Positions 29,572 through 45,896 of a stretch of DNA of 64,000 bases are shown here, in pieces. The notes under the pieces were generated by a model, which saw only the letters and a program-made list of their open reading frames with translations, was not told where the DNA came from and ran no database searches. The stretch's first letter is position 1; every line of letters begins with the position of its first letter. Both the position numbers and the translations under genes were made by a program. The stretch comes from Streptococcus marmotae (GTDB lineage: Bacteria; Bacillota; Bacilli; Lactobacillales; Streptococcaceae): the NCBI RefSeq assembly GCF_001623565.1, contig NZ_CP015196.1, positions 1,447,501 through 1,511,500 of the forward strand, in the 5' to 3' direction.

Positions 29572-30720
29572 TTAGTTTGCCCAGAATTTTTCTGCAATCG
29601 CTTGGCCTTGTTTGATTTTAGCCCATTGTTCAGCAGCAGACAATTCATTTCCAGAATCGCATGAGGCAAAGCCGCATTGGTGAGAAAGGTAGAGGCGTTC
29701 TTTTGGAATGATTTGACTAGCTTGCTCGAGTAATTGGTAGACCCGATCTTCATCATCTAGGGTGTTGGTCTTACTAGAAAGGAGGCCTAAGACGATTTCA
29801 GCCTTGGAATCTTTGAGGCTTTCAAGTGCTTTTAAATCTCCAGCACGCTCGTCATCCCATTCAAGGAAGAAGCGGTCATAGTGTTGGTCACGGAGGAATT
29901 TCTGAGCGATAGCTTCATAGGTGCCACCAGCTGCATGACGACTTTCGTAGTTTCCACGGCAGTTGTGAGTCCAAACTGTCAAGCCAAGTTCATGAGCGAA
30001 ATCGACTACCTCATTATTGAGTGCGACGAAGGAATCTGCTAAACCAGATAAGGCGGCATTGCCCTCAGCAAAGAAACTAGCTGGATTGTTCTCATCGAAT
30101 AATTCCCAGAGACAGTCATCGAATTGAATAATGTTACCACCAGCGGCCTTGTAATCTTCAAGGAATTCTTTGTAGGCCTTGACAACTCCAGCTTGTAATG
30201 CCTCTGCTGTTGGGTAAATCTGCTCTTCTCCATATAGGCGGTCAAATACAGAGAGTTCGGTAAAGGCATGGGCAGGCCCCCAGATGGTTAGTTTTGTTGC
30301 AGTATCTCCTGCTTCAGCTTGAACCAATTTGTAAATGTCGATAAAATGGTGGTTTTTCCCAGATAATTCTTCCGTAATGCGGATACCAATGTCCTTACGT
30401 GTTTCAAAATGTCCACCGTCATGATCCTTGAATGGATAACCATGCTCTGCGATATAGCGCTCAATACCTTTGAAACCCCAGATAAAGTCAAGATGCCACA
30501 TTGATTTTGAATATTCACCATCTGTCACGATGTCAATGCCATTTTCCTTTTGTTCAGCGATAATCGCCTTGATATCCTTAGTTTCCGTTTCTTGGTAGCC
30601 TGGAAAATCTTGATAGAAAGGATAGTTGATGTCATCACGGTGCTCGATTTGCGTCTTGTAGTCCCGCAAATCAGCTGGACGTAGGAGTGAGCCTACGAGT
30701 TGAAATCTTGATCTTGTCAT
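29572..30720 (-). CDS. cobalamin-independent methionine synthase-like protein (MetE C-terminal domain type)
   Basis: A 382-residue protein matching the C-terminal barrel of MetE (YxjG/YxjH-type, annotated as 5-methyltetrahydropteroyltriglutamate-homocysteine methyltransferase). Zinc-ligand regions are visible: WTHNCRGNYESRHAAGG, LEWDDERAGD and LSHQCGFASC. The N-terminal half of full MetE is absent, so it may use a simpler methyl donor. A MET box lies 83 bp upstream, which supports a role in methionine metabolism and control by MtaR. It is monocistronic. Confidence 0.86.
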   Translation of the reverse strand: MTRSRFQLVGSLLRPADLRDYKTQIEHRDDINYPFYQDFPGYQETETKDIKAIIAEQKENGIDIVTDGEYSKSMWHLDFIWGFKGIERYIAEHGYPFKDHDGGHFETRKDIGIRITEELSGKNHHFIDIYKLVQAEAGDTATKLTIWGPAHAFTELSVFDRLYGEEQIYPTAEALQAGVVKAYKEFLEDYKAAGGNIIQFDDCLWELFDENNPASFFAEGNAALSGLADSFVALNNEVVDFAHELGLTVWTHNCRGNYESRHAAGGTYEAIAQKFLRDQHYDRFFLEWDDERAGDLKALESLKDSKAEIVLGLLSSKTNTLDDEDRVYQLLEQASQIIPKERLYLSHQCGFASCDSGNELSAAEQWAKIKQGQAIAEKFWAN

Positions 30721-30802
30721 GTTCGTTTCTCCATTTCTCGTTGATGTTTTTATTCTATCGAAAATAGAGGGAAAAGAAAAATAGTTATTTTAAAAGAAAG
30801 GA

Positions 30803-30819
30803 TATAGTTGAAAACTATA
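30803..30819. promoter_or_regulatory. MET box (MtaR/MetR-type site)
   Basis: TATAGTTGAAAACTATA differs at one base from the streptococcal MET box TATAGTTTNAAACTATA. It stands between the divergent MetE-like and MFS genes; the MetE-like gene is the likely target. Confidence 0.78.
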
Positions 30820-30863
30820 CCTTATCGGAATGCCTCTCCCACCTATCTTCTTTCCGTAAAATA

Positions 30864-30872
30864 TGATATAAT
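30864..30872 (+). promoter_or_regulatory. extended -10 promoter for the MFS transporter
   Basis: TGATATAAT with TG at 30864-30865 and TATAAT at 30867-30872, 33 bases before the start codon. Confidence 0.65.
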
Positions 30873-30905
30873 AACCGCAGTGAACGTTAGAAAAATGAGG
30901 TCTCT

Positions 30906-32069
30906 ATGAAGAAACAATCAGTCTTTATTGCAGTAGGAATTGTGATGTTAGGAGCAGTGATGCGCGTGCCGATTACAGCCATTCCTCCGATTTTAACAGA
31001 TATTGCAAGTAGCTTGGGAGTGTCGGTCAGTGAGTTGGGTCTTCTTACTTCTATTCCGCTTCTCATGTTTGCTCTCTGCTCTTCTATCGCTCCGAAATTA
31101 GCCAATCGCTTTGGCATGGAGCGGTTGATGAGTGGGGTCTTACTCACTATGGCAATCGGCTCGCTGTTGCGGATTGTCAATCTCCCTTTCTTATATCTGG
31201 GAACGATTCTAGTCGGGGCAACGATTGCCATGATTAATGTCCTATTGCCCAGTATCGTTGCAGCCAGCTTTCCGCATAAGATTGGTCTGTATACCACCTT
31301 ATACATTACGATGATGGGGCTCATGTCTACGGTAGCATCAATGGTGGCTGTTCCCATTGTGGCAGCAACATCATGGTCTTTCTTTATCATCTTGGTGACA
31401 GGCTTTGTCGGACTAGCTTTTCTGTTTTGGCTCCCAAATATGCGACAGAATCATCATACTGCCCAAACAGAAGTAATGGCAACTTCATCGCTTTGGAAGA
31501 ACAAGTATGCGGTCATTTTTCTAGTCTTTAGCGGTCTGCAATCCATGCTCTTTTACACCGAGTTGACATGGTTGCCAACGATGGCACAAACCGCAGGTTT
31601 AGCTCAAGCTCAGGCAGGATTTTTAGCTGGGATTTTTAGCTTGGTGAGTATACCTGTTTCCATGGTGATTCCTGGAATTGTTTCACGCCTGAAAAAAGAG
31701 CAACGAGCAATCATGATGACTGGCTTATCTTGCCTAACCCTAATGGGTCTCGTCCTGATGTTATTCACACCAACAACCTTTATCATGTGGTTGATTATTC
31801 ATCTCTTGCTCGGCTTATCTGTCAGTGCTTTGTTCCCTTACATGATGTTGTCGCTGTCCCTAAAAACTAGTAATAGTCAAGCAACGGCTCGCTTATCAGG
31901 GATGGTTCAGACCGGAGGCTATCTCATTGCAGCGATAGGACCTGCTGCCTTAGGGTATAGCTATTCGATTGCAGCTTCTTGGATACCCCTGATTATCAGT
32001 CTACTCCTTGTGACACTTGGTATGATAGTCACGATTTTCTTGATTGAAAAAGAAGATGTGATTGTGTGA
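30906..32069 (+). CDS. MFS transporter, CynX/NimT family
   Basis: A 387-residue protein with 12 predicted transmembrane segments. The opening VGIVMLGAVMRVPITAIPPI and the central loop between segments 6 and 7 fit the CynX/NimT (cyanate permease-like) branch of the major facilitator superfamily. It is a proton-driven transporter of the cytoplasmic membrane; the substrate is unknown. It has its own promoter. The MET box is near but faces the other gene better. Confidence 0.88.
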   Translation: MKKQSVFIAVGIVMLGAVMRVPITAIPPILTDIASSLGVSVSELGLLTSIPLLMFALCSSIAPKLANRFGMERLMSGVLLTMAIGSLLRIVNLPFLYLGTILVGATIAMINVLLPSIVAASFPHKIGLYTTLYITMMGLMSTVASMVAVPIVAATSWSFFIILVTGFVGLAFLFWLPNMRQNHHTAQTEVMATSSLWKNKYAVIFLVFSGLQSMLFYTELTWLPTMAQTAGLAQAQAGFLAGIFSLVSIPVSMVIPGIVSRLKKEQRAIMMTGLSCLTLMGLVLMLFTPTTFIMWLIIHLLLGLSVSALFPYMMLSLSLKTSNSQATARLSGMVQTGGYLIAAIGPAALGYSYSIAASWIPLIISLLLVTLGMIVTIFLIEKEDVIV

Positions 32070-32150
32070 TGAAAAGAAGAAGCTGATTAGAGGTAATTTA
32101 TGGGAAAATTGTTAGCGACTAGAATGCGAGCTAGAAGGAAGGAGCTAATC

Positions 32151-32999
32151 TTACTCACTAGAGTTTTTTTGTGTGTCAATGATATGCTGCATCCTTTTGA
32201 GCCACTCATGTTCCTCGGTAATGGTTAATAGATCTACTCCAGACTGAATGAGTTGCTCATCATCAGTGGCCAGTCCTAGATAGATCCGCCCCGTTGCTAG
32301 GTAGTCGTAGCGTTTTTGCTCTTTGGCGAGTTGAATGGTTTTTTCAGCGAAGAATTGTGTTTTCTCAGTGAGATGATGATTTAAAAAGATATTTGATAAC
32401 TGCCTATACAGGGAGAGGGCAGTAACTTGAATATTTTTATAATCCCCAAACTTTTCGAGATGTTTCAGTAGCAAATCAGAGACGATTTCAAGAGTTTCAA
32501 TGGGGAAGTGTCCGATGATACTACCGACCAATCGAATATCATTGTGATACCAGATATCATAGGCGGATAATTCCCTCCAAAGGAGTCGGTCAATGATATC
32601 TTTAGAATTTTTTGAAGGTTCTTGTAGTTCAAGTACAGCTTGAAGCACGAGCATTCTTCGTCTAATGGGTACTGAGTCTGGCTGTCGCTTGAGGACTTCC
32701 TGGCATTGCGAGACGAGCTCCTCCATTTTTTCTCGGCTAGGAAACTTGAGATTGTCAATCTCATAGAGGAGTTTTTGACTTTGGCTAGGCTGGTAAGAGT
32801 AGCAGATGTATTCAAACTCTTCAAAGGTCATGTCCACTTGCTGGAGCAGGAAGTGCATATGCTCGTAGGAGGGGACTGTTTCGTTGTTTTCAAAGCGTAC
32901 GAGGGTACTACGGTTGAGGTGGTTTCCGCAGACCTGCTTTTGACTGAGCTGTTTCGCCCGACGAATCTCCTTATAGACACTTCCATAATCCCATCTCAT
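32151..32999 (-). CDS. Rgg/PlcR-like (HTH plus helical repeat) transcriptional regulator
   Basis: A 282-residue cytoplasmic regulator. Residues about 5-60 form an XRE helix-turn-helix (VYKEIRRAKQLSQKQVCGNH, LNRSTLVRFENNETVPSYEH); the rest is all-helical with TPR-like repeats, the peptide-binding fold of Rgg, PlcR and TprA proteins. ATG 32999 follows TAGGAGGTGAAG on the minus strand; the longer frame is rejected. It is divergent from a 47-codon exported-peptide gene and the bacteriocin operon, so it probably senses a secreted peptide and controls that operon. Whether it activates or represses cannot be told. Confidence 0.88.
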   Translation of the reverse strand: MRWDYGSVYKEIRRAKQLSQKQVCGNHLNRSTLVRFENNETVPSYEHMHFLLQQVDMTFEEFEYICYSYQPSQSQKLLYEIDNLKFPSREKMEELVSQCQEVLKRQPDSVPIRRRMLVLQAVLELQEPSKNSKDIIDRLLWRELSAYDIWYHNDIRLVGSIIGHFPIETLEIVSDLLLKHLEKFGDYKNIQVTALSLYRQLSNIFLNHHLTEKTQFFAEKTIQLAKEQKRYDYLATGRIYLGLATDDEQLIQSGVDLLTITEEHEWLKRMQHIIDTQKNSSE

Positions 33000-33039
33000 C
33001 TCTTCACCTCCTAAAAATGTGAGAATTTGCAACAAATGA

Positions 33040-33054
33040 TACCATTTTCTGGTA
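33040..33054. promoter_or_regulatory. dyad in the divergent regulator/peptide promoter region
   Basis: TACCA-TTTTC-TGGTA. It covers the expected -35 position of a promoter with TATCAT at 33062-33067 (17-bp spacing from 33044), which has no consensus -35 of its own. This is a likely operator for the divergent regulator. Confidence 0.52.
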
Positions 33055-33107
33055 ATTAGTATATCATAAAAGTGTAAAAAAATTCATAAATAAAGGAGGA
33101 AAATTTT

Positions 33108-33251
33108 ATGAATAGAATGCAATTGGTAGCAAAAGCTTTATTTGGACTGTTACTTATTGGCAGTATGCTGTTTGCTATTCATCTCTTGACGGTAGATGAA
33201 GGTTATCTTCCTTTAGAAGTTCAAGGGGTGAATCGGATGATTGAAGTATAA
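33108..33251 (+). CDS. 47-aa exported peptide, candidate pheromone precursor
   Basis: ATG 33108 has a near-perfect ribosome site, AAAGGAGGA at 33092-33100, with seven bases between. The product opens MNRMQLVAKALFGLLLIGSM, a basic start and hydrophobic segment like a signal sequence, followed by LLTVDEGYLPLEVQGVNRMI and EV at the end. Size, charge and layout fit Phr-like or other Rgg-linked signalling peptides, which are processed from the C-terminus. It is divergent from the helical-repeat regulator and 98 bases before the bacteriocin. It has no double-glycine leader, so it is not itself a typical class II bacteriocin. Confidence 0.72.
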   Translation: MNRMQLVAKALFGLLLIGSMLFAIHLLTVDEGYLPLEVQGVNRMIEV

Positions 33252-33349
33252 AGTGCTTACAGAAAGGATGTGGTGGAGATGTACAGTGAGGAAGATATGT
33301 AGAAGCGCCCTTTAAATATTATAAAATAGTTAATTATAGGAGTAAAAAT

Positions 33350-33688
33350 ATGAAAAAAAGAATTAGTAACAAAGCGTTAGCTTTGCTAGCTGTAGGCTTT
33401 TTAGGTTTTGGACTTGCTACTACAGCTACTGTCGTTAGTGCAGAAACAGCATATCCAGCTCCGTATCCAATTATTGACGAATGGAATTATGGTGTAAGTG
33501 ATAACTATGGTTACTCTAACTATTATGTTAAGTCTCCAAATAATATTGGTTCAAAATCTTCGGTAACAAATTTTTGGGGAACAGTGAAGGCATCCGATTC
33601 TCAAAGATATGGCTGGGCACTGTCAAGCGCAACAAAAGCTTGGAATGATGTACGATTAAATGCACATTGGAATTACTTTAGATTTTAA
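33350..33688 (+). CDS. lactococcin 972 family bacteriocin precursor
   Basis: A 112-residue secreted precursor. Residues 1-31 form a Sec signal peptide (KALALLAVGFLGFGLATTAT, cleavage likely after VVSA). The mature part of about 81 residues is rich in Tyr, Trp, Ser and Asn (EWNYGVSDNYGYSNYYVKSP, TNFWGTVKASDSQRYGWALS), has no cysteine, and ends AHWNYFRF, all as in the lactococcin 972 family. Lactococcin 972 binds lipid II and blocks septum formation. ATAGGAG precedes the ATG. The downstream membrane protein and ATPase are the usual partners of this family. The product is somewhat longer than lactococcin 972 itself. Confidence 0.9.
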   Translation: MKKRISNKALALLAVGFLGFGLATTATVVSAETAYPAPYPIIDEWNYGVSDNYGYSNYYVKSPNNIGSKSSVTNFWGTVKASDSQRYGWALSSATKAWNDVRLNAHWNYFRF

Positions 33689-33705
33689 AATGGTTGATGA
33701 AAGTT

Positions 33706-33733
33706 AAGACCCTATCATACTACTGGGTCTTTT
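33706..33733 (+). terminator. partial terminator between bacteriocin and transporter genes
   Basis: AAGACCC (33706-33712) pairs with GGGTCTT (33725-33731), followed by a short T run. It would let the bacteriocin be made in excess over the downstream proteins. Confidence 0.68.
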
Positions 33734-33754
33734 GTAATATATAGGTAGGTGATT

Positions 33755-35728
33755 ATGAAATTAAAATTAGCTGTTATCGGCTTCTTCTTTTGTTTAATTG
33801 CTGCAATTGGTCTGGTGAATATTAGTGATACTCAAACCCCAATCCCGTTACCAATTGATGGTGCTTTTTCAATTCAAGGGAAAAGTAAGCTTTCTAGTAA
33901 CGAAATATACGAAGTAATTCGGAATCTATCAGAAACGAAAAAAGTAAAGATTTACAAGCCGATAGTTCAGAGTTCAGGTCAGTTGACTTATCTAAGTTTC
34001 GATGATACAAACGACGAACTATTAAAGTCGGCACCGATAACAGGGATGTATTATACCCTCGGGAAAATAGATTCAACTAGTTTACAAACACTTACAGATA
34101 CAGGACTGAAAACAGCCTATATGGCCTATCCTTGGCATATAGGAGGAATTGTACAATTCTCTGGAACTTTAAGATTGTTGTTAATGGCTACCATTTACTT
34201 AACCTTATTAGTTGTTTTATTTGTTGTCCGAACGAGGCAGATTAAAGAAGGGGTCATACGACGTTCTTTAGGCTTACCGATATACAACCTAAGAAAAGAT
34301 TATGTTATTTCTTTGCTGTTTGAACTGGCTTTGGTTGCATTATTGATGATTTCTTACAGTCATTTTTTGGGAAGTGGTTTCTTCACCTATAGTTCTAAGT
34401 TGTTTTTCTCCCTGCTCCTAACTAATTTTATACTATTTCAAATCATTGACCTCCTCACTTTTGTTCTCTTTTGGTTGACGATTAAGGTTGAAAAACCAAT
34501 TGAAATTATAAAAAACAAGGCAAAAAATAGACTCATTTTTATCGTATGGCTTGCAATTATTTCTGCTATCATCGTTGTTTCAGGGAGTTTGTTACACGAA
34601 ACAAAGAGTAGTCAATCCAGAATCAATCGACAGATACAGCATTTAGAACCGTGGAAAGAAGTAAAAGACTGGAAAAGACTAGAGTTTCTGGGGATTGATG
34701 ATGAACCTGTTCATGATGGACAAGCAAATGATTCAGGAGCTAAATATATACAGATAGCCTCTTCCTTCAAAAAATTAGATTTTTTATATATCAAACCATC
34801 GTCGGTGTATATTCCAGATCAGATGAAAACTTCTAATTTTGCAGAAGATTTTTCTAAGCAATTAAAAAGTGATGGGATAACGAATCCAGAAGTCAATAAA
34901 GAGTTGATCTACATCAACCGAACAGGTGTTCAAGTACAAAATGCAGCGAGTGGAACAAACTATCAAGTGTTAGATAATAAGGTAGCCACCGTCTATATTC
35001 CTGATAAATTTAAAAAGTATAGGACATCAATTGAGAACACCGTCGTGGCCGAACAATTCACTGGAACAAACTTCACAAAAGAGAATCTTGCAGTGCAAAT
35101 CATTCCTAATGGGAAAACATTCTTTCATTTCAATGAGAATGGAGATGATGGTCATGAAGACAGTCTACCATTTGCAAATGCGTCAGAAACCAAGGATAAC
35201 ATAGTCGTGGTATTAGACACAGATAAGATGATTGAAGGCAAAGATTTTATTTTGGCTAGCAATATACTATATAACTCACTTTTTAGTCCTGAAGCGATAA
35301 AGAAGGTAAATGATGTGAGTGGCCAGTTGAATTTTTCAATCAATCCAGTAGACGTTTACCAAATTGTAAAGCTGAATATTCAATCTTTAGAGCACCAAAT
35401 TTTCCTTTCAAAAATCTTGCAGAAGATTATTTATGGTATTGTATTTCTACTCATTTATCAGTATATTCAACTATTTATTTCTTCAAAACAAAATGATTAC
35501 GTGAAAAAAATCATTTTAGGTCTATCAAAAACAGGGATAGCCTTGTCTAGTCTCAAATATTTTATTGTAACGATTACAATGGTTATCCTATTTACATTTG
35601 TTAGGACAAGGCAAGTAGAACTACTGTACATTGGTACCGCTTCTTTAATGGTGTTAATTATTTCAACGACAATGAGTTTCAGAAAATTATCTGAAAAATA
35701 TACTCAAATTTTAAAAGGAGATGAATAA
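33755..35728 (+). CDS. bacteriocin-associated integral membrane protein (lactococcin 972 locus, DUF1430/TIGR01654 type)
   Basis: A 657-residue membrane protein with an N-terminal segment (LAVIGFFFCLIAAIGLVNI), a first extracellular part, a cluster of segments around residues 145-285, a second large extracellular domain of about 240 residues, and three or four segments at the end (YGIVFLLIYQYIQLFIS). This plan matches the putative immunity or export membrane protein that accompanies lactococcin 972 homologues. The start at 33755 is preferred to a GTG at 33749; TAGGTAGGTG lies before it. It ends on a TAATG overlap with the ATPase gene. Together they form an FtsX-like ABC unit for immunity or secretion. 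Confidence 0.88.
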   Translation: MKLKLAVIGFFFCLIAAIGLVNISDTQTPIPLPIDGAFSIQGKSKLSSNEIYEVIRNLSETKKVKIYKPIVQSSGQLTYLSFDDTNDELLKSAPITGMYYTLGKIDSTSLQTLTDTGLKTAYMAYPWHIGGIVQFSGTLRLLLMATIYLTLLVVLFVVRTRQIKEGVIRRSLGLPIYNLRKDYVISLLFELALVALLMISYSHFLGSGFFTYSSKLFFSLLLTNFILFQIIDLLTFVLFWLTIKVEKPIEIIKNKAKNRLIFIVWLAIISAIIVVSGSLLHETKSSQSRINRQIQHLEPWKEVKDWKRLEFLGIDDEPVHDGQANDSGAKYIQIASSFKKLDFLYIKPSSVYIPDQMKTSNFAEDFSKQLKSDGITNPEVNKELIYINRTGVQVQNAASGTNYQVLDNKVATVYIPDKFKKYRTSIENTVVAEQFTGTNFTKENLAVQIIPNGKTFFHFNENGDDGHEDSLPFANASETKDNIVVVLDTDKMIEGKDFILASNILYNSLFSPEAIKKVNDVSGQLNFSINPVDVYQIVKLNIQSLEHQIFLSKILQKIIYGIVFLLIYQYIQLFISSKQNDYVKKIILGLSKTGIALSSLKYFIVTITMVILFTFVRTRQVELLYIGTASLMVLIISTTMSFRKLSEKYTQILKGDE

Positions 35729-36351
35729 TGGCAATTGAACTGTTGAATGTTAGCAAAAAATTCGGCTCAAAAGAGATATTTACAGACTTAAATTTAAGAT
35801 TCGAAGCTGGAAAAAGCTACGCATTGATTGGAGGTTCTGGTTCAGGTAAAAGTACACTGCTTAATATTATAGGAAGACTAGAAAAAATCAACAATGGGAA
35901 CGTTTTAGTTGATGAGCAGGATATTTGGAAAACAAAAGAAAGAACTTTCTTTAAAAATGTAATTGGGTATGTGTTTCAGAACTATTCTTTAATAGAAAAT
36001 AAAACAGTATATGAGAATTTAAGGCTCATCAATAAAGACAAAAACATAATCTCTGATGTACTTGAAAAAGTAGGGCTTTCTAGTGACTATTTAAACCAAA
36101 AAATATATGAACTGTCGGGAGGGCAGGCTCAGCGTGTAGCGATTGCAAGAATGTTACTGAAACCACGTAAAATTATTTTAGCGGACGAACCTACAGGGGC
36201 TTTGGATGGTGAGATTGGAAAAGAAATCATTCAGTTACTTTTGAGTGAAGCAACTAAAAATAAATATGTTATTATAGCAACACATGACCCAGCGGTATAT
36301 AATAAAGTTGATGTTATCATTGATATGAAAGAGATAGGGAGCAAGATATGA
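35728..36351 (+). CDS. ABC transporter ATP-binding protein of the bacteriocin locus
   Basis: A 207-residue ATPase with Walker A GGSGSGKST, Q-loop VFQNYSLIENKTVYENL, signature LSGGQAQRVAIARML, Walker B IILADEPTGALDG and switch His in ATHDPAVYN. It overlaps the membrane-protein stop by one base (TAATG) and the next start by ATGA, so all three are translated together. It should energise the large membrane protein for bacteriocin export or self-protection. The closest family by pattern is the bacteriocin-associated MacB-like group. Confidence 0.93.
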   Translation: MAIELLNVSKKFGSKEIFTDLNLRFEAGKSYALIGGSGSGKSTLLNIIGRLEKINNGNVLVDEQDIWKTKERTFFKNVIGYVFQNYSLIENKTVYENLRLINKDKNIISDVLEKVGLSSDYLNQKIYELSGGQAQRVAIARMLLKPRKIILADEPTGALDGEIGKEIIQLLLSEATKNKYVIIATHDPAVYNKVDVIIDMKEIGSKI

Positions 36352-36839
36352 AAAAGAAAATGTATATTACAGTAATACTAATAGCAGGAATACTCGCCGT
36401 TTTCTTATTTGGGAAATACGTTATAAAAAATGAACATCAAAATAAACCTACGATAGATTTAACAGTCTATACAATTTCTTCTAGTGATACCCAAAAATGG
36501 AACAAAGTAAAGCAATTTGAAACGGAAGAAGCGATATACCCAATAACGGTAAAAGAAGCAGCGTCTTCAGAAGAAATATTTTCCAATATCATTGAAGATG
36601 GATTTGCTATTGGCTTTGGCGTTCGTGAAGAAGAAGTGAAGCAATTTAACAGTCATTTAGGAAGTGATATAGAAGATGCTAAGAACAATAAATTAATTGG
36701 AATAGAATTTTTCACTTTTTCAAATGAGGATGAGGGATTTGTGGTAGCTGATTTTGACTACGGTAAAAAAGAGTATAATTCGCAGAAAAACGAAAAGAAA
36801 GAATTATATAAAAAACTATATGAAGCTTTTAAGGAGTAA
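36348..36839 (+). CDS. exported or membrane-anchored protein of the bacteriocin operon
   Basis: A 163-residue protein with one N-terminal hydrophobic segment (MYITVILIAGILAVFLFGKY) and a polar, acidic, extracytoplasmic rest containing EEIFSNIIEDGFAIGFGVRE and a lysine/glutamate-rich end. No lipobox cysteine is visible, so it is probably a membrane-anchored or secreted protein. ATG overlaps the ATPase stop (ATGA) and makes it the last gene of the bacteriocin operon. An accessory immunity role is a natural guess but is not shown by any motif. I do not recognise the family. Confidence 0.68.
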   Translation: MKKKMYITVILIAGILAVFLFGKYVIKNEHQNKPTIDLTVYTISSSDTQKWNKVKQFETEEAIYPITVKEAASSEEIFSNIIEDGFAIGFGVREEEVKQFNSHLGSDIEDAKNNKLIGIEFFTFSNEDEGFVVADFDYGKKEYNSQKNEKKELYKKLYEAFKE

Positions 36840-37203
36840 ATGATGAGATATCTGTAGGCTAGAATACCTATTATGTTTGAGAGAAATCCTTGTACTTTTC
36901 TATAAAAGGAACCACCTCACGTAAAAGGAGTTTTAAGGTAATTTTAAATAAATATGTAAAAAGTAAAAAAAATTTCTTCTATCAACTATGCCAGCGATTA
37001 GGAGAAAGTAGTAGTTTTTCCATATTGCAGCAGTCATTAAGGGGAAGGCTTGATGTGCTGATTGGCTCAACTAAAAGAACAGAATTTTCTGAAAATAATT
37101 GACCAAGCCATTGAAGTAGGATAGAATAGTAAGAAAAGAATACGAGCCTGTAAGGGCTTCGTAGATGGTATGTTGGATAGTTTCTGGGTGTGAGGGAAGT
37201 CAA
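36840..37203. other. noncoding stretch after the bacteriocin operon
   Basis: A frame at 36890-37102 lacks a ribosome site and is A-rich; I do not accept it. A possible -10, TAGAAT, lies at 37121-37126 before the next gene. A small hairpin (CGAGCC...GGCTTCG) lies near 37142-37159. No terminator with a clear T tract is visible. Confidence 0.4.
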
Positions 37204-37497
37204 ATGAATAGCATTAGGAGAAAGATTGACAAAATCAAAGAAGAATATCAAGAAACAAGAAGCCATGCAGGAGAAGACTTTTTAGAGTGGGTCATTAAAC
37301 GAAAGCTTAGCTGGGGAGTGAGGTGGGTCCTTGTTCTCCTGATTGTAGTTGGTTGGCATCTTTTTTTGCTTGATGTGATGAATCTAGCAAGGCTGTTTGG
37401 GCTCCTAGTGCTTTTCTTCCTTTGCTTTATGTTAAGGAGTTTGTTCCACTTTTTCAGTTCAATTTATAGGCAAATAAAAAAGAAATGGATAGAATAG
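37204..37497 (+). CDS. small two-TM protein of unknown function
   Basis: A 97-residue protein with a charged, helical N-terminal third (SIRRKIDKIKEEYQETRSHA) and two hydrophobic segments (WVLVLLIVVGWHLFLLDVMN and LFGLLVLFFLCFMLRSLF). GAGGGAAG stands seven bases before ATG 37204. Its last codons (KKWIE and stop) lie within the left copy of a 56-bp direct repeat, so the 3' end could have been rebuilt by recombination. No family recognised. Confidence 0.6.
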   Translation: MNSIRRKIDKIKEEYQETRSHAGEDFLEWVIKRKLSWGVRWVLVLLIVVGWHLFLLDVMNLARLFGLLVLFFLCFMLRSLFHFFSSIYRQIKKKWIE

Positions 37498-37532
37498 AAT
37501 CCGTTACGCTCTTATCTTGTGGAAATGAAAAA
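37477..37532. repeat. 56-bp direct repeat, left copy
   Basis: Starts AAAAAGAAATGGATAG and ends GTGGAAATGAAAAA; 53 of 56 bases equal those at 40667-40722. It contains TAGAATCCGTTACGCTCTTA. The pair brackets the ABC/Rgg module. Confidence 0.78.
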
Positions 37533-37746
37533 GAGGTTGGGACAAGCTCAATTTTGAGTCAAAATATAAAAAACACATAAAATCAAGGTTCAGAGAACAT
37601 GATCTTATGTGTTTTTACTATTTGAAGAGCTTTGCTCAGCTTTTTTATATGATAATGTTCACACTCAATTTTTTATACGTACTCGTCCCAGATTACCTTC
37701 TTTTGTGGGTGAGGACGAAGTCACAATGGAGGTTTGTCCCAGCCTC
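37533..37746. repeat. inverted repeat arms enclosing terminator hairpins
   Basis: GAGGTTGGGACAA (37533-37545) and TTGTCCCAGCCTC (37734-37746) can pair at 12 of 13 positions and enclose about 190 bases. Inside, AAACACATAA (37571-37580) pairs with TTATGTGTTT (37605-37614) next to a T run, a terminator usable by the minus-strand ABC operon or the plus-strand gene. Confidence 0.6.
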
Positions 37747-37751
37747 TGAAG

Positions 37752-38447
37752 TTATTTCAATTCTTTCTTTTTGAATAAGTAGAAGCTACTTGCTAGATAG
37801 ATAATCGTAAAAAAGCAAGCGATGATTGTGCTAGCAGTCCAATTTGTATCTGTATTTTGTAAAGCTAGGAAGAGGAAGATACTATTTGGAAGGGGGATAT
37901 GGAGGAGATTTTCAGTAATCAGATGAAGAACATTATCGAACAGGAGAACGATGAGAATAAAGGAAAGATAGGCCTGATTGATTTTCTTAAAGGCGATAAA
38001 GAGGGTAGAAGCGAGTAGGATAATACAGATGTAAAGAGGGAGTTGGTGAATAAAAATCGACCAACTAGTTGTGATATCAACTTCGCCTCCTAGAAGAATA
38101 CGCATGAGAAGTGCTAGAGTGTAAGCAAAAAGGATGTATAGTAGGTTGATAACAAGATTTGTGAGAATTTTGTAGAGAAAAATAGCATTTCGTTTTTGTT
38201 TTTTGACAATGAGATTGTTAATTGTTCGGTGATGGAAATCTTCTCCAAATAGGAGATTTGTAGGAGCAAGAAAAAAGAGTGGAAGAAACTGTGTCAAGAG
38301 TTGAATTAGGTTGTAGGAATCCTCCTTTGAAGGGCTACTGCTGAGTAAAAAGGCAGATAGTAGTGATAAGGCAAATAGGATTGAAAGGGATAAAATCAGT
38401 TTTCTTTCTTTTAGGATACGATAAAGGTCTGCTTTAAGATAATTCAT
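37752..38447 (-). CDS. ABC-2 type transporter permease
   Basis: A 231-residue protein with six hydrophobic segments, beginning MNYLKADLYRILKERKLILS, the usual cytoplasmic start of lantibiotic-immunity-type (ABC-2) permeases. The start at 38447 is chosen because GGAGAA precedes it on the minus strand; it overlaps the ATPase end by 14 bases. It pairs with the adjacent BcrA-type ATPase, so the pair probably exports or resists a peptide. The gene converges on the terminator region at 37.5-37.75 kb. Confidence 0.85.
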   Translation of the reverse strand: MNYLKADLYRILKERKLILSLSILFALSLLSAFLLSSSPSKEDSYNLIQLLTQFLPLFFLAPTNLLFGEDFHHRTINNLIVKKQKRNAIFLYKILTNLVINLLYILFAYTLALLMRILLGGEVDITTSWSIFIHQLPLYICIILLASTLFIAFKKINQAYLSFILIVLLFDNVLHLITENLLHIPLPNSIFLFLALQNTDTNWTASTIIACFFTIIYLASSFYLFKKKELK

Positions 38448-39330
38448 TGCTAGATTCTCCTTCTTGAATGAGTTGTAGATAGTAGCTTTCAAAAGCGATT
38501 TTCTTATTAAAAATTGCTTTTAGTTCAATGCGTTCGTGAATTAGCTGTGCTATGAGGGACATAATCTCTGTTTCCTTTGGAAGAATGAGGTAATCATCTT
38601 CTTCTTGGAACGAAATGTCTTGTTTTTGCAGAAGAATTTTAGTTGCTTTAAGATTGGTTGTTGCTAGATAGAGTTTTTCTTCTAGTTCTTGCTGGAGTTC
38701 TGTTTTTGAAAATTGTCGTAAGACTTTCCCTTTATGCATGATAATATATCGATCTACGACTAATTCTAATTCTGATAAGATATGGCTAGAGATTAAAATA
38801 GTCATGTTGTACTGTTCACGTAGAGTAAGAATGATATTTCGCATATCTCGGATACCTGCGGGGTCTAAGCCGTTGATAGGTTCATCGAGAATGAGAAAAT
38901 CTGGACGATCCAAGATAGCCATAGCAATCGCTAGTCTTTGCCGCATACCAAGGGAAAAATCCTTAGCTTTCTTGTGTGGATTAACCTCTTGGAGACCAAC
39001 TATTTCAAGAGTTTCTTCAATAATCTGCTGTCTATTTTTTAATCCTAGTTGTAGGGCAATATAGTGAAGATTTCCTTCCGCTGAGAGATTTGGTTGCAGA
39101 GCAGGTGATTCAATGAGTGCACCGATGCGATAGGGTTGGGATGAAAAAATTTCACCGGATGTTGGTGCGATTAGACCAGAGAGGATTCGCAAAAGAGTCG
39201 TCTTTCCTGCTCCATTTTCTCCGACAAGACCACAGATTTCCCCTTTTTGAATGGAGAAGGAAATGTGGTTGACAGCCTTTTGAGAGGCATACTGTTTTGT
39301 TAAGGATTGTAAGGTTAAAAGTGTGGACAT
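38434..39330 (-). CDS. ABC transporter ATP-binding protein, BcrA/lantibiotic-immunity type
   Basis: A 298-residue ATPase with Walker A GENGAGKTT, signature FSLGMRQRLAIAMAIL, Walker B FLILDEPINGLDPAG and switch His in ISSHILSELE. The C-terminal extension of about 80 residues and the SLGMRQR signature are typical of BcrA and related peptide-resistance transporters. AAAGGAGA precedes the ATG on the minus strand. It is divergent from an Rgg-family regulator with 94 bases between, so that regulator is a likely controller. Confidence 0.93.
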   Translation of the reverse strand: MSTLLTLQSLTKQYASQKAVNHISFSIQKGEICGLVGENGAGKTTLLRILSGLIAPTSGEIFSSQPYRIGALIESPALQPNLSAEGNLHYIALQLGLKNRQQIIEETLEIVGLQEVNPHKKAKDFSLGMRQRLAIAMAILDRPDFLILDEPINGLDPAGIRDMRNIILTLREQYNMTILISSHILSELELVVDRYIIMHKGKVLRQFSKTELQQELEEKLYLATTNLKATKILLQKQDISFQEEDDYLILPKETEIMSLIAQLIHERIELKAIFNKKIAFESYYLQLIQEGESSNELS

Positions 39331-39424
39331 GTTGTCTCCTTTCCAATTTCTATTAAACTAGAACTATGGTATACTATTTTTTAACTGAAATAGATTTTAT
39401 TACATATCTGTAAAGAGGTGTTAC

Positions 39425-40285
39425 ATGAAAGAACAGTATGGAAAAGTTTTTAAAATTATTCGAGAATCAAAGAATATGTCTTTAAAAGAGGTCGCTGGAG
39501 ATTTTGTAACTCCTGCTCAGTTATCACGTTTTGAGAATGGAAAGAGCAATCTGACCGTTGATACATTTTTCCATTGTTTGAATAATATGGATGTTTTGCA
39601 GGGAGAGTTCTCAACTTTTTATAATACTTATTATCAAGATGAAGATGTGAGAACTTCTAAAGAACTATATTTAGCTATAGAAGCCCGTAATATTGAATTT
39701 TTTCAAAGGTATATTAAAGATTATGAAAAAAGATATGGAGATTATAAGAGAAAGTCAGATAGACTGATGATTGCGGTTTTTCATGTTTTTATGAATAGAT
39801 GTGACCCATCTATTATTATTCCTGAAGAAGAAAAGAGAGTGATAACCGATTATTTGATGTCTATTGATGAGTGGTGCAGATATGAGTTATGGATATTAAG
39901 TAATTGTGCTCGTTCTCTAAGTACAAAAACGTTAGAAATTTTAGGTATGGAAGTAATAAAGCGCAGTCAGTTTTATGATAATATTGAGGAAAATGCGAGA
40001 AAAACGTATGGATTATTATTAAATATAATAGGTCATTTATTAGATAGAAAAGAAGAACGATTCGCTTCTAAGTTTATTAAGATGTTAGATAGTGCGAATA
40101 TGCTAGAAACATACATGTTAGAAAGGTTACAGTTAAAATTTTGTAAAGCACATTTACGTTATTTACAGGGAGTTGTAGGAGGTTTAGATGAGATGAAGGA
40201 GTGTAAGCATATAATGGAGTTTTTGGATTGTTACGAGCTATCTATTCAAATTTCTGATACAATCAGCCAACTTACAGATATGTAA
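39425..40285 (+). CDS. Rgg family transcriptional regulator
   Basis: A 286-residue regulator: an N-terminal HTH (VFKIIRESKNMSLKEVAGDF, then VTPAQLSRFENGKSNLTVDT) and a helical Rgg/GadR/MutR C-terminal domain (for example IDEWCRYELWILSNCARSLS). This is the clearest Rgg pattern in the window. AGAGGTG precedes the ATG. Divergent lies a two-gene ABC exporter and downstream a small exported acidic peptide. Rgg proteins usually bind short peptides imported by Opp, so the downstream peptide is a possible ligand source. The coding sequence is notably A/T-rich. Confidence 0.92.
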   Translation: MKEQYGKVFKIIRESKNMSLKEVAGDFVTPAQLSRFENGKSNLTVDTFFHCLNNMDVLQGEFSTFYNTYYQDEDVRTSKELYLAIEARNIEFFQRYIKDYEKRYGDYKRKSDRLMIAVFHVFMNRCDPSIIIPEEEKRVITDYLMSIDEWCRYELWILSNCARSLSTKTLEILGMEVIKRSQFYDNIEENARKTYGLLLNIIGHLLDRKEERFASKFIKMLDSANMLETYMLERLQLKFCKAHLRYLQGVVGGLDEMKECKHIMEFLDCYELSIQISDTISQLTDM

Positions 40286-40324
40286 CGATTTTAAAATGAA
40301 TTGATTTTTCCTGTAGAATGATTC

Positions 40325-40339
40325 TTGTAAGTCTTACAA
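40325..40339. promoter_or_regulatory. palindrome downstream of a -10, before the acidic peptide gene
   Basis: TTGTAAG-T-CTTACAA follows TAGAAT (40314-40319) by five bases. A palindrome over the start of transcription suggests a repressor site for the 84-aa peptide gene. Confidence 0.45.
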
Positions 40340-40378
40340 ACAACAAGCATATATTGATCATCCATTGGAGGGAAAATT

Positions 40379-40633
40379 ATGAAAAAATTATTAGTCGTTA
40401 TATTATTAGTGGGAATTAGTTTTGCGTCAATATTTCATTTTGCTAAACCATCATTAGAAGAGCCAATGAATACTAAATTTATTCCATTTGGGAAGGTTGA
40501 TTTTTCCGATGATTATGATGATTATAATTCTGATTCTGATTATGATACAGATGACTCAGATGATATTACCAGTCGATTTGGAAATTTTATTAAGAATCAC
40601 AAAACTCCGTTTTCTAAAACAATTGAAAGATAG
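40379..40633 (+). CDS. 84-aa exported protein with acidic Asp/Ser repeat
   Basis: GGAGGG precedes the ATG by seven bases. Residues 1-22 are a signal-like segment (MKKLLVVILLVGISFASIFH). The middle is strikingly acidic (SDDYDDYNSDSDYDTDDSDD). The end is basic: ITSRFGNFIKNHKTPFSKTI. An acidic propeptide followed by a basic tail fits a secreted precursor cleaved to a small cationic peptide, but no cleavage site is proven. It lies next to an Rgg regulator and a BcrA-type exporter. I do not recognise a named family. Confidence 0.68.
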   Translation: MKKLLVVILLVGISFASIFHFAKPSLEEPMNTKFIPFGKVDFSDDYDDYNSDSDYDTDDSDDITSRFGNFIKNHKTPFSKTIER

Positions 40634-40666
40634 TTGTCTTCTTCTTTTGAGCATGAAAAGATACTG

Positions 40667-40722
40667 AAAAAGAAATGGATAGGCTAGAATCCGTTACGCT
40701 CTTATCTTGTAGAAATGAAAAA
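40667..40722. repeat. 56-bp direct repeat, right copy
   Basis: Matches 37477-37532 at 53 of 56 bases. It is followed by a chain of terminator-like hairpins. Confidence 0.78.
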
Positions 40723-41010
40723 ATACCCTAGTAGGGTATAACTCGCCTGTTTATTTCTAGGCTCGCGAAAAACGAGGTTGAGACAAAAGTCTCTTACCTC
40801 GTTACGTTACATAGTTTTAACAGTTTAGCGCAGTAGTTGTCTGGTTTGTAAAATGTTGATAAATCAACATTCTAGTAGAAGAGGCTAGCGAACATTTCGC
40901 TAGCTCTATTTCCAACCTTTCACAATTCTTAATTGTGAAAGCTAGTCAACTTGCGGGGGTGGGACAACGAAATCGAACTCTTACGAGTTACTGATTTCTG
41001 TCCCACTCCC
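40721..41010. repeat. array of five hairpins without a gene
   Basis: In order: ATACCCT-AGT-AGGGTAT (40724-40740); AACGAGGT...ACCTCGTT (40771-40803); ATGTTGAT-AA-ATCAACAT (40853-40870); GCTAGCG...CGCTAGC (40884-40904); CTTTCACAATT-CTT-AATTGTGAAAG (40917-40941); and a long stem pairing GGGGTGGGACA near 40955 with TGTCCCACTCCC (40999-41010), with AACTC-TTAC-GAGTT inside. No open frame of note lies here. Confidence 0.7.
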
Positions 41011-41038
41011 AACTCGCTTTTTGATTTTCAGGCTCGTG

Positions 41039-41066
41039 AAAAAATGCTCCAGTGGAGCATTTTTTT
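41039..41066. terminator. bidirectional terminator of the DUF3042 gene, AGT-loop type
   Basis: AAAATGCTCC, loop AGT, GGAGCATTTTTT. On the outer side lies CAGGCTCGTG, the reverse of the family's conserved tail. Confidence 0.82.
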
Positions 41067-41235
41067 AATGTGCGACACGGCGGCGTGCTGCTTTTTTGCG
41101 ATTTTCTTCGATGAACGCTTCTTTCTTTTCTTCAGGTTCAATGATTGTTTTATGAATCGTAAAGACAGCACCTGCAGCAAGAGCGACTGTACTAGCTACT
41201 CCCGTTAAGAAACCTTTTCCAAAACCTTTAGCCAT
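41065..41235 (-). CDS. DUF3042 family small protein
   Basis: A 56-residue protein, MAKGFGKGFLTGVASTVALA, one hydrophobic segment, then EPEEKKEAFIEENRKKAARR, which matches the DUF3042 family of Lactobacillales. ATG 41235 follows AGGAGAAAG on the minus strand; a long upstream extension of the frame is rejected since it overlaps the miaA promoter. Function unknown. It is divergent from miaA. Confidence 0.88.
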   Translation of the reverse strand: MAKGFGKGFLTGVASTVALAAGAVFTIHKTIIEPEEKKEAFIEENRKKAARRRVAH

Positions 41236-41303
41236 AGTTCTTTCTCCTTTACTTATGTTATAATAGATTGTAGCGAAAAAACAAAAAATTTTCAAGGAAA
41301 AAG

Positions 41304-42194
41304 ATGAAAACAAAGATAATAGCAGTGGTAGGACCGACTGCGGTGGGGAAAACTGCCCTAGGAATTGAGCTTGCACAGCGCTATAATGGAGAGATTATTA
41401 GTGGCGACAGTCAGCAGGTTTATCGACAATTAGATATTGGAACAGCCAAGGCAACCAAGGAAGAGCAGGGCCTTGCGCCCCACCATTTGATTGATGTGCG
41501 CGATGTGACAGAAGGCTATTCTGCCTATGATTTTGTAGCAGAAGCTAGCCAGTTGATTGCGGAACTTGCTGAAAAAGGAAAGGTGCCGATTATCGTAGGT
41601 GGCACAGGTCTTTATATTCAAAGTTTGCTGGAGGGCTATCATTTGGGTGGTCAGGTGGCACATGAGGAGATTCTTGCCTACCGAAAAGAGCTAGACACTT
41701 GGCCAGATGAGCGTTTATTTGGGAAAATAGCAGAGCTGGGAATTGAAATTCCCCAAATCAACCGCCGTCGTGCTATGAGGCAATTGGAGTTGGCACATTT
41801 TGGTCAAGAGTTGGAAAACCAAGAACCACCTTATGAAGCCTTAGTGATTGGCCTGTCAGATGAACGAGCTGTCTTATATGAACGCATCAACCAGCGTGTG
41901 GATCAGATGGTGGAAGTCGGCTTGCTAGAAGAAGCCAAGTGGCTCTATGAAACCTATCCAACAGCTCAAGCCAGTTTGGGAATTGGATACAAGGAATGGT
42001 TTCCTTATTTTAAAGGGGAGATAACTGTCACAGAAGCGATTGACAAGGTCAAGCAAAACACCCGCCGCTTTGCCAAACGCCAATTGACATGGTTTCGTAA
42101 CCGCATGCAGGTGGTGTTTGACCTCGTATCTGAAGAGGGGTTCAAGGACCAGATTTTCCAACGAGTAACGGAATTTTTAGAGGAAAAATCATGA
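41304..42194 (+). CDS. miaA: tRNA dimethylallyltransferase
   Basis: The 296-residue enzyme adds a dimethylallyl group to A37 of tRNAs reading UNN codons. The P-loop [11 protein letters not shown] is at residues 10-20, followed by [31 protein letters not shown], and the RRAMRQLE and [14 protein letters not shown] regions, all standard for MiaA. AAGGAAA precedes the ATG. It begins a tight operon with hflX, a hypothetical gene, rnz and an SDR gene; the hflX start overlaps its stop by ATGA. Confidence 0.97.
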
Positions 42195-43441
42195 TTGAAA
42201 CGAGAAAAGAAGAAGAGCGTGCCTTGCTGATTGGAGTAGAACTGCAGCAGACAGAAAACTTTGTCATGTCTATGGAAGAACTTGCGAGTCTTGCTAAAAC
42301 AGCTGGTGCAGTTGTAAAAGGTAGCTACACCCAGAAGCGAGAAAAGTACGACAGCAAGACCTTTATCGGTTCAGGAAAATTAGAAGAAATCAAGCTCATG
42401 GTGGAAGCAGATGGCATTGATACCGTCATTGTCAATAATCGCTTGACCCCACGGCAGAACGTCAATTTAGAGGAAATCTTGGGCGTGAAAGTCATTGACC
42501 GCATGCAATTGATTTTGGACATCTTTGCCATGAGAGCAAGGAGCCATGAGGGGAAATTACAAGTGCACTTGGCTCAATTGAAGTACATGCTACCACGTCT
42601 GATTGGACAGGGAATTATGCTGAGTCGTCAGGCTGGGGGAATTGGTTCTCGTGGACCTGGTGAAAGTCAGCTAGAGCTCAATCGTCGTAGCATTCGTAAC
42701 CAGATTGCTGATATTGAACGGCAATTGAAAATCGTTAAGAAAAATCGTGCAATGATTCGAGAGCGCAGAATCCAATCAGGTGTGTTCAAAATCGGTCTTA
42801 TTGGTTATACTAATGCAGGAAAGTCTACGATTATGAATGCTCTGACAGATAAACGCCAGTATGAGGCAGATGAATTGTTTGCGACCTTAGATGCAACGAC
42901 TAAGCAGGTACAGCTGTCCGATACCTTCCAAGTAACGGTGACCGATACGGTTGGATTTATCCAGGATTTACCGACAGAGTTGATTTCAGCTTTTAAATCA
43001 ACCTTGGAAGAATCGATGACTGTCGACTTGCTACTCCATGTGATTGATGCTTCTGATCCCAATCATACTGAGCAGGAAGAAGTTGTCTTGACCATTTTGC
43101 AAGAGTTAGAGATGTTGGACATTCCCCGCCTCGCCCTTTATAATAAATTAGATAAGACAGATGACAGCTTTACACCGAGTCAATTTCCGCATGTCATGCT
43201 ATCTGCCAAAGATGAGAATGCCAAATCCCATATCCAGATGATGGTCTTAGCAAAAATCAAAACCATGTTTGAGCCATTTGAGATTCGCGTCCCCCTGAAA
43301 GACAGTTATACACTGCATGACCTTGGGCGGATAGCCTTAATCGATAAGCGCTTTTATGAAGATGATGTGGAGGTCATCAAGGGCTATATTTCAAAGAAAG
43401 ATAAGTGGAAATTAGAGGAATTTGAAAATGGATTATATTGA
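42191..43441 (+). CDS. hflX: GTPase HflX
   Basis: A 416-residue ribosome-splitting GTPase. The N-terminal domain includes [17 protein letters not shown]; the linker has the conserved [17 protein letters not shown]; the G domain has G1 GYTNAGKST (near residue 205), G3 DTVGFI and G4 NKLD. A short C-terminal domain follows. It is translationally coupled to miaA (ATGA) and overlaps the next gene by 14 bases. HflX rescues stalled ribosomes under heat or antibiotic stress in known species. Confidence 0.96.
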
Positions 43442-44054
43442 TCTGGCCTTGAAATACGGTGGTTTTACGAGTCTTGATAGGGTGTATCTGACACGGCAAT
43501 TAAAATGCTTAACGGATCGTCAAAAGCTGGCCTTTATCACACCGCCACCCTCTGTGATTAATGCTTATTTTGCAGAAATCTATCAGAAACAAGGGCCACA
43601 GGCTGCGACCGATTATTATCTCGAACTATCCTGTCAACTTCATCTCTTGACAGCTTGTCCGTCATTTGAAGAGAAAAAACCATTTGTTCGCCTGAATCTA
43701 TCTGGAAAGTCGTTTGGTTTTGCCTATCATAATGAGGCAGAATTAGCACAAGTATTTGCTGAAAAAAATGAGCCAGTAACGTCTGATTTGCTTTTTGAGA
43801 TTGCACAGATTTTTCCTCATTACTCCGTTTTTGTCAAAGATGACCTGATTTGGATGCAGCCCTTGGCTATCGATGAGGACAGTCTTATAGCAGTAGAGAG
43901 TTCTTATCTCTTAACAGACCTTGCTGAAAGTGCGGACTGGGTGCAGATTTCAGGTTTTAACCAAGAAGAGGTGATAGAGATTGCAAGCCAGTATTCCGGT
44001 CAAGCCTACTATGCTTGGTCAGGAAGAAAAGCAATTATCTCTATTCAAAAATAG
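43428..44054 (+). CDS. conserved hypothetical protein of the hflX operon
   Basis: A 208-residue soluble protein starting [20 protein letters not shown], with [20 protein letters not shown] and a C-terminal [17 protein letters not shown] 43428 lies six bases after AGAGGA, inside the end of hflX. It sits at this place in many streptococci as far as I recall, sometimes annotated as a cystathionine beta-lyase, which the sequence does not support: there is no PLP-lysine motif. Function unknown; co-expression with hflX and rnz points to RNA or ribosome upkeep. Confidence 0.78.
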
Positions 44055-44064
44055 AAAGAAGTAT

Positions 44065-44994
44065 ATGTATATTCAATTTTTAGGAACTGGAGCGGGACAG
44101 CCCTCCAAAGCACGTAATGTATCGAGTTTAGCATTGAAATTACTCGATGAAATCAATGAAGTCTGGTTGTTTGATTGTGGGGAGGGAACGCAAAACCGGA
44201 TTTTAGAAACTGCTATTCGACCACGAAAGATTAGTAAGATTTTTATTACTCATTTACATGGTGACCATATCTTTGGTTTACCAGGCTTTTTATCGAGTCG
44301 CTCTTTTCAAGGAAATGAAGAGCAGACTGATATTGATATGTATGGACCGACAGGTATCCGCCAGTTTGTCTTGACGAGTCTGAAAGTATCGGGTTCTCGC
44401 CTACCTTACCGCATTCATTTTCATGAGTTTGATGTTGATACGGTAGAAAGGGTGCTTGATACAGATAAATTCACGGTATTTGCAGATCAACTTGACCATA
44501 CGGTACCCTGTGTCGGCTATCGTGTGATTCAAAAAGATTTGGAAGGAACGTTAGATGCAGAAGCGCTTCGTGCGGTAGGTGTACCATTTGGTCCCCTTTT
44601 TGGAAAGATTAAAAATGGTGAAAATGTCATCTTAGAAGACGGCAGAGAAATTGTAGCTAGCGACTATCTTTCTCCTCCGCGACCTGGTAAGGTTGTCACA
44701 ATCTTAGGGGATACCCGCAAATGCCATGCTAGTGTGCGGCTAGCGGTTAATGCAGATGTATTGGTGCATGAGGCGACTTATGGTAAGGGTGATGAGGTCA
44801 TCGCTCGAAAACATGGTCATTCGACCAATATGGAGGCAGCCTTGGTGGCAAAAGATGCAGGAGCCAAACGCTTGTTGCTCAACCATATTAGTCCGCGCTT
44901 CTTATCTAAGGATATTAGTCAGCTTCGCAAGGATGCAAGTACGATTTTTGAGAATGTCCACATTGTAAAAGATTTGGAAGAGGTTGAAGTGTGA
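44065..44994 (+). CDS. rnz: ribonuclease Z
   Basis: A 309-residue metallo-beta-lactamase-fold enzyme that trims tRNA 3' ends. The zinc motif is [13 protein letters not shown] (near residue 63), with further ligands in LDHTVPC, LGDTRKC, VHEATY and the final GHSTNMEAA and LNHISPR. The start is ATG 44065, ten bases after the previous stop, with AGAAAGAAG upstream; the longer frame overlapping the previous gene is rejected. Its stop overlaps the SDR start (GTGA). Confidence 0.96.
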
Positions 44995-45746: not shown

Positions 45747-45793
45747 TTACTATTATGGATGAATGGAACATGGATTAAAAACTATGTAAAAAA

Positions 45794-45896
45794 GGGACGC
45801 AGATGTTCCAACTTTAGTTGGTTACAACTGAGGCTCCCTTTAGTGGGGACGCAGATGTTCCAGCTTTAGTTGATTACAACTGAGACGCCCTTTAGG
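45794..45896. repeat. tandem pair of 53-bp structured repeats
   Basis: GGGACGCAGATGTTCCA starts at 45794 and again at 45847. Both continue with a CTTTAGTTG segment, TTACAACTGAG and CCCTTTAG. The first copy holds the stem CCAAC-TTTA-GTTGG, and GGGACGCAG can pair with CTGAG(G/ACG)CCC at the other end. Two near-identical copies head to tail suggest a small structured RNA or a duplicated regulatory unit. Confidence 0.68.

Follow-up and report, generated by a model that had tools for sequence, protein, structure and literature searches.

The window analysed here, a stretch of 64,000 nucleotides (nt) from the Streptococcus marmotae contig NZ_CP015196.1, carries at positions 32151–36839 a locus that is probably a self-signalling bacteriocin module governed by a peptide-activated Rgg protein of the RtgR type. 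There, an exported-type peptide and a lactococcin-972-type operon lie opposite a helical-repeat regulator that belongs to a family of pheromone receptors; this arrangement, which the original prediction had singled out, recurs far above chance. Reading of the open reading frames (ORFs) finds every proposed part in place, i.e. the regulator, the divergent 47-codon peptide, the precursor, a hairpin and three overlapping genes: the ATPase start overlaps the stop of the membrane-protein gene by 1 nt and the start of the gene for a 163-amino-acid (aa) protein overlaps the ATPase stop by 4 nt (Table 1). The locus is a new combination of known parts and not a new kind of system, its unusual feature being a long tryptophan-free peptide. 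The combination is called new because a literature search, which had subscription papers and preprints outside its scope so that absence from it weighs little, recognised neither an RtgR-type Rgg joined to a lactococcin-972-type bacteriocin nor long tryptophan-free peptides.

Compared with Pfam and NCBIfam as a single sequence, the regulator stays under the cut-offs (24.9 bits against Rgg_C, cut-off 27); PF21259 is precomputed for its database protein P0001, and a profile of 31 of its relatives reaches the solved Rgg/MutR, ComR and RopB chains. It is 34% identical over its length to the regulator of locus L205, whose peptide has exactly the tail listed for RtgS type A in the table of PMC13361665. 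The peptide of L113 shares its tail with SHP1518 in the same table, and those of L058, L059 and L061 (L060 less so) are very similar to the pheromone that PMC7018657 gives for SSA_2251. These comparisons assign the regulator to the Rgg proteins of the RtgR/Rgg1518/SSA_2251 kind. Its nearest homologue (86% identity) is from Streptococcus sp. ZJ93, which lies outside the 284 searched genomes of the genus, where the best other regulator match reaches 53%. Relatives are present at an E-value of 1e-10 in 101 of 197 genomes of the genus, some having distant Rgg proteins only, and the named loci with 49–51% identical regulators (n = 12) comprise 11 from Streptococcus suis and one from an uncultured Streptococcus. 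A quick, midpoint-rooted tree of 106 of the 109 distinct regulators, with SH-aLRT (Shimodaira–Hasegawa-like approximate likelihood-ratio test) support only, places the window regulator and 18 others in one group (support 100) and also holds RtgR- and Rgg1518-type rows.

Some Rgg proteins are repressors. The window regulator might also be one, or might act without a peptide, in response to nutrients or stress; the short frame would then serve the bacteriocin message as a leader or upstream ORF. A usually negative role is described for TprA, another of the peptide receptors (PMC7595303), but RtgR and Rgg1518, the relatives that have been studied, are activators dependent on their own peptide and switch on the divergent operon when supplied with its C-terminal part (PMC7018657, PMC9426450). 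For a mere leader, it would in our judgement be unusual to encode 47 aa that include a hydrophobic stretch and a polar tail, and repression or peptide-independent control appears very unlikely.

The upstream regions of the regulator genes share two elements, both defined as patterns picked after viewing the data. A GTGA-N(8-12)-ACA box occurs in 72 of 109 upstreams versus 33 of 2180 simulated ones, and -10-like variants in 100 of 109 versus 119 of 2180; the box together with a -10 of type TATATCAT is found in 67 of 109 versus 2 of 2180. A stricter form of the box has one exact match in the window. Of the 20 other genomes matched by the intergenic DNA, 9 keep the stretch 33013–33087 beside the regulator homologue; in this DNA search, conservation adjoins the regulator and is not seen within the peptide frame, a few scattered short matches at other places being disregarded. 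For RtgR-type regulators, an inverted repeat in the pheromone promoter is needed for induction; in the window, this promoter has the shared GTGA box. The window also has a perfect TACCA-N5-TGGTA palindrome, at 33040, which was dropped as a candidate, as it occurs with at most 2 mismatches in 9 of 109 upstreams versus 217 of 2180 simulated ones.

Read by eye, the window peptide has a positively charged start and a hydrophobic stretch and ends in about 18 residues that are first acidic, then polar; it has no tryptophan and matches no family in Pfam and NCBIfam searches. When the 350-nt intergenic stretch is simulated by a first-order Markov model, 33 of 10,000 copies contain a hydrophobic ORF that has 40 codons or more and a strong ribosome site. 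Once repeats and partial regulator hits are dropped, a candidate peptide (a correctly placed hydrophobic short frame with a ribosome site) stands beside 72 of the 109 distinct regulators, the window's included, and none beside the other 37, versus 398 of 2180 simulated upstreams. Tryptophan is found in the last 14 residues of 42 of the 61 first candidates outside the window clade and of 0 of the 11 inside it. Peptides of the ETQP type, known from this clade, have 41–43 aa and end in ETQPATHLVG in six rows and in ETQPIINQLA in one; by eye, they have the layout of the window peptide with a different tail. Their ratio of nonsynonymous to synonymous polymorphism (pN/pS 0.60 overall, 0.79 in the tail half) gives no sign of strong constraint, although the 6 pairs from 4 sequences are too few to decide. 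The last ten residues, identical in 5 distinct ETQP sequences of which four are near-copies, are a better sign of conservation. Tentatively, the window and its Streptococcus suis-type relatives may represent a separate pheromone class for RtgR-type receptors, in which long precursors (41–47 aa) begin with a segment that crosses the membrane and end in a polar tail free of tryptophan. The window tail would then be a signal reserved for the lactococcin-972-type weapon of the same locus, receptor, signal and weapon travelling together on one segment. The window-clade regulators of L077, L078 and L183–L188 have no recognisable peptide, several having a 70-aa hydrophobic ORF and a different ABC (ATP-binding cassette) gene instead; they are perhaps receivers of a neighbour's signal.

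The precursor has a start that looks like a signal peptide when read by eye. It scores 17.1 bits against lactococcin_972 TIGR01653 (cut-off 32.1) and has no match to PF09683 in Pfam. Profile-versus-profile comparison with hhalign gives 96.7 and 97.4% for single pairs, with no database background. When a profile of 16 recognised lactococcin 972 proteins is run on 599 ORFs, 8 proteins, five of the window type and three of the distant L057/L072/L073 type, rank directly after the recognised ones with 21–32 bits, the next ORF reaching at most 3.3. In alignment A2, 10 of 23 members match TIGR01653 at E-values up to 0.1, two of those being classic members; A2 also matches 2LGN, the solved lactococcin 972 chain, but includes these two classic members. 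The UniRef name ‘Lactococcin 972 family’ is carried by 2 of 45 precursor homologues, the others being hypothetical proteins or unnamed, and the bacteriocin has no match in plasmid records. On the strength of the profile-profile and profile-ranking tests, the precursor is judged to be a diverged lactococcin 972 relative, below curated cut-offs and set apart from decoys by profile.

It is highly improbable that the operon instead combines a secreted protein with an unrelated ABC exporter and is not a bacteriocin system. The ATPase, like the precursor, falls below the curated cut-off of its model, yet the lactococcin-972 transporter family TIGR03608 (L_ocin_972_ABC) is the best of 197 families for it (236.7 bits, cut-off 254.85). 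Profiles A3 and A4, built without classic members, fail to reach the solved lactococcin 972 chain, and the reverse profile A4 ranks a few unrelated ORFs among the weakest recognised members, both of which tell against a bacteriocin; the 16-member profile, by contrast, puts all 8 proteins above every unrelated ORF, and the hhalign values, the A2 members that match TIGR01653 and the two UniRef names argue the same way.

The conserved order of regulator, peptide and bacteriocin genes that had been expected was looked for in homologous loci. Among the 92 lactococcin-972-type places of the 197 genomes, some of them fragments, a divergent regulator is located within 1 kb at 18 and within 2.5 kb at 21, about 0.02 pairs within 1 kb being expected from a simple density estimate. 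All 18 pairs closer than 1 kb, which include two loci of the window's own genome, are divergent. The count used 112 of 139 regulator places (the 27 weakest or fragmentary were left out), 24 of 26 places of a first bacteriocin search (second pieces of two places were left out) and 68 of 104 places of a second one, the others being in genomes not searched for the regulator. The original prediction took company with unrelated genes as a sign against it, and this is found in part, as such regulators also occur opposite other cargo genes.

On the tree of 106 regulators, the pairing label needs 14 changes, at least 11 of them by well-supported branches, against a shuffled mean of 16.9; by this comparison, the regulator-bacteriocin pairing is one that has been made or lost many times. 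At L058–L061, operon proteins 70–85% identical to those of the window stand behind another regulator-peptide pair. Since such similar operons are found behind different pairs, the signal and the weapon seem to be parts that are exchanged separately. Conversely, regulators of the L058 kind stand at L199, L200, L202 and L230 without a match to this operon beside them. Inspected by eye, L199 has a PWWWPWE peptide followed by a different small secreted protein and a short ORF, L202 and L230 being alike at the peptide; L199 is possibly a bacteriocin locus, so far unstudied. At L062–L071, the operon has no Rgg gene in front and other upstream sequences, some with TGTAAACGGATACA-like elements, and in some operon copies (G076, G155, also G071 and L074) the bacteriocin gene is interrupted by stops or has a split frame. 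The window's own genome has a second locus (G000:C1:1990180-1993488, i.e. L054, wider in L057) of the same arrangement, 25–56% identical to the first: a second regulator, a short peptide ending in FPFLWEIF, a lactococcin-972-type gene, a membrane protein and an ATPase.

Activation, export, import, positive feedback and target can be modelled on the relatives, and the lifecycle of the signal would be the following. The RtgR-type Rgg receptor would bind the putative site at 33019–33034. The 47-aa peptide, assumed to be the ligand of the regulator, would be exported and its C-terminal part trimmed off, and this fragment would be taken up again by an oligopeptide (Ami/Opp) importer. Bound to the regulator, it would turn on the peptide promoter and thus feed back on peptide synthesis, while transcription would read on into the bacteriocin gene. 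The membrane protein, the ATPase and the 163-aa protein, whose most likely roles are immunity and/or export, would be expressed at a lower level because of the hairpin behind this gene. The bacteriocin itself would leave by the Sec route and attack the cell-wall synthesis of neighbours, as published for relatives. The host genome has oligopeptide-binding proteins at 3 places and, in one frame, an EcsB protein, which we take to be the equivalent of PptB.

Several observations weigh against a self-signalling module. The window regulator has a long branch on the tree; the pairing label is only mildly clustered there (5 of 500 shuffles are as low) and its changes include losses; and the same bacteriocin operon occurs at 12 loci without a regulator match in the fetched stretch. 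No second box precedes the bacteriocin gene in the window, so that co-transcription with the peptide has to be assumed. Unlike the studied RtgR-type pheromones, the window peptide has no Trp-X-Trp; it matches no relative in the protein database, and a recognisable peptide, of the ETQP type, stands beside only 7 of the 18 clade relatives, three others having spurious-looking candidates and eight none. The missing homologues and the eight relatives devoid of a candidate would fit a regulator that controls the bacteriocin through a peptide made in another strain, species or locus, the 47-aa frame not being its ligand; pneumococcal ScbR, for instance, answered only a peptide encoded in S. pseudopneumoniae (PMC11796350). 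Such a foreign ligand is nevertheless unlikely, given the strong ribosome site of the 47-codon frame, its location where this family usually has the pheromone gene, its rarity in the Markov copies and the peptides of the same layout beside seven clade relatives, six of them with an identical tail. A peptide encoded and sensed at the locus itself is thus still the preferred explanation.

The original prediction knew of no such wiring for this bacteriocin family, but a lactococcin-972-like bacteriocin under the control of a pheromone was described in 2024 and the principle is therefore not new: streptococcin B is activated by the peptide SIP via the adjacent ComR-type regulator ScbR (PMC11796350). 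There, as in the window, a peptide receptor stands beside a lactococcin-972-like operon, and the peptide switches the bacteriocin on. ScbR differs in being of the ComR type and encoded immediately upstream, and it answers an XIP of 19 aa with a double tryptophan; the pneumococcus itself uses competence (ComE) control. According to the same source, streptococcin E is predicted to be under TprA/PhrA, and the control of streptococcins A, C and D is called unclear (PMC11796350).

The RtgR/RtgS system of Streptococcus pneumoniae shares with the window the kind of regulator, the divergent peptide gene and the conserved promoter element, but RtgS is shorter, has Trp-Gly-Trp near its end and drives double-glycine peptides and a peptidase-containing transporter (PMC7018657), whereas the window peptide has 47 aa, lacks tryptophan and faces a lactococcin-972-type operon. 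At L205, which has the RtgS type A tail, a lactococcin-972-type gene is located 4.2 kb away and is not divergent. In the pneumococcus, SP_0109 belongs to the lactococcin 972 family (PMC6722419) and RtgS is found beside sp_0114 (PMC7595303); these are near neighbours by locus tag only, which speaks against novelty. The SSA_2251 regulator of Streptococcus sanguinis has a predicted WxW pheromone close to the L058, L059 and L061 peptides, which precede operons resembling that of the window, but SSA_2251-like regulators form another clade, with 35% identity to the window regulator and another peptide; the available excerpt of PMC7018657 names the pair without a link to a bacteriocin. SHP/Rgg systems have predicted SHPs of 20–26 aa with a hydrophobic C-terminal stretch (PMC12445099), unlike the longer window peptide with its polar tail. 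In ComRS systems, comS is not divergent from comR and type II XIP has a double tryptophan (PMC7018657, PMC11796350), the window differing in both respects.

The streptococcins and Lcn351 are lactococcin-972-type bacteriocins that come, as in the window, with membrane-protein and transporter genes; the available parts of PMC6120550 and PMC9067509 describe no RtgR-type regulator-peptide pair for them, and the window protein differs in being below the family cut-off. The words Rgg, regulator and quorum are absent from the Lcn351 paper on S. suis (PMC9067509). Pneumococcal bacteriocin clusters are commonly flanked by Rgg and PlcR regulators, with a switch beside TprA and Rgg (PMC6120550). The locus bears on how many lactococcin-972-type bacteriocins get switched on. 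From the recurrence of the pairing it can be predicted directly that, wherever a gene of this family lies opposite an RtgR-type regulator, the short frame separating the two codes for the inducer, and that a synthetic peptide with the C-terminal sequence of its product would turn the bacteriocin on. A separate exchange of signal and weapon would bear on how strains recognise rivals.

Table 1. Features of the regulator-peptide-bacteriocin locus (window coordinates)
Feature	Position	Strand	Basis
Rgg-family regulator, RtgR-type, 282 aa, helix-turn-helix and helical repeats	32151..32999	-	ORF, domain search, profile, tree
Putative regulator box GTGAGAATTTGCAACA	33019..33034	+	Pattern shared among homologue upstreams
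-10-like TATATCATAA of the peptide promoter	33060..33069	+	Variants common to homologue upstreams
Ribosome-binding site AGGAGG	33094..33099	+	8 nt before the ATG of the peptide ORF
47-aa exported-type peptide, candidate pheromone precursor	33108..33251	+	ORF
Lactococcin-972-type bacteriocin precursor, 112 aa	33350..33688	+	ORF, profile comparisons
Hairpin between bacteriocin and membrane-protein genes, possible partial terminator	33706..33731	+	Folding
Membrane protein, 657 aa	33755..35728	+	ORF, identity to three proteins weakly matching TIGR01654
ABC ATPase, lactococcin-972 transporter type, 207 aa	35728..36351	+	TIGR03608 best family
Exported or anchored protein, 163 aa	36348..36839	+	ORF

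The hairpin has a 7-bp stem and is no more stable than shuffles of its own sequence (z 0.65). An AGACCC/GGGTCT stem is found at the same place in 7 of 10 folded relatives, the remaining 3 (the distant operons L057, L072 and L073) having other predicted folds. The 657-aa membrane protein matches no family of Pfam or NCBIfam, TIGR01654 included, and is 23–25% identical to three proteins that match this bacteriocin-associated family below its cut-off. The 163-aa protein has chance-level matches only in the same collections; it is kept in close operons (69–77% identity) and was not found in the distant operons L057, L072, L073 and L075.

The whole locus lies within a segment of about 8.9 kb (32075..41010) that is absent from G010, the one relative of the genus that was aligned. 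The corresponding stretch of G010 (L269) aligns to 29579–32074 of the window, then has 113 bases, then aligns to 41011–45843, and its upstream transporter gene is 79% identical to that of the window. No direct repeat longer than 10 bases is found at the segment ends. The G+C content of the segment is 34.9%, versus 42% in both flanks, and because of this low value an insertion here is probable, a deletion in G010 being the other possibility. The same segment carries an ABC pair and neighbouring genes (37752–40633). Lantibiotic protection TIGR03740 is the best family of the ATPase of this pair (38434–39330; 214 bits, cut-off 309.75), a second Rgg gene (39425–40285) matches RGG_Cterm with 108 bits, over the cut-off, and an acidic exported-type ORF of 84 aa is located at 40379–40633. 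Together, these genes possibly make up a second peptide-regulated module.

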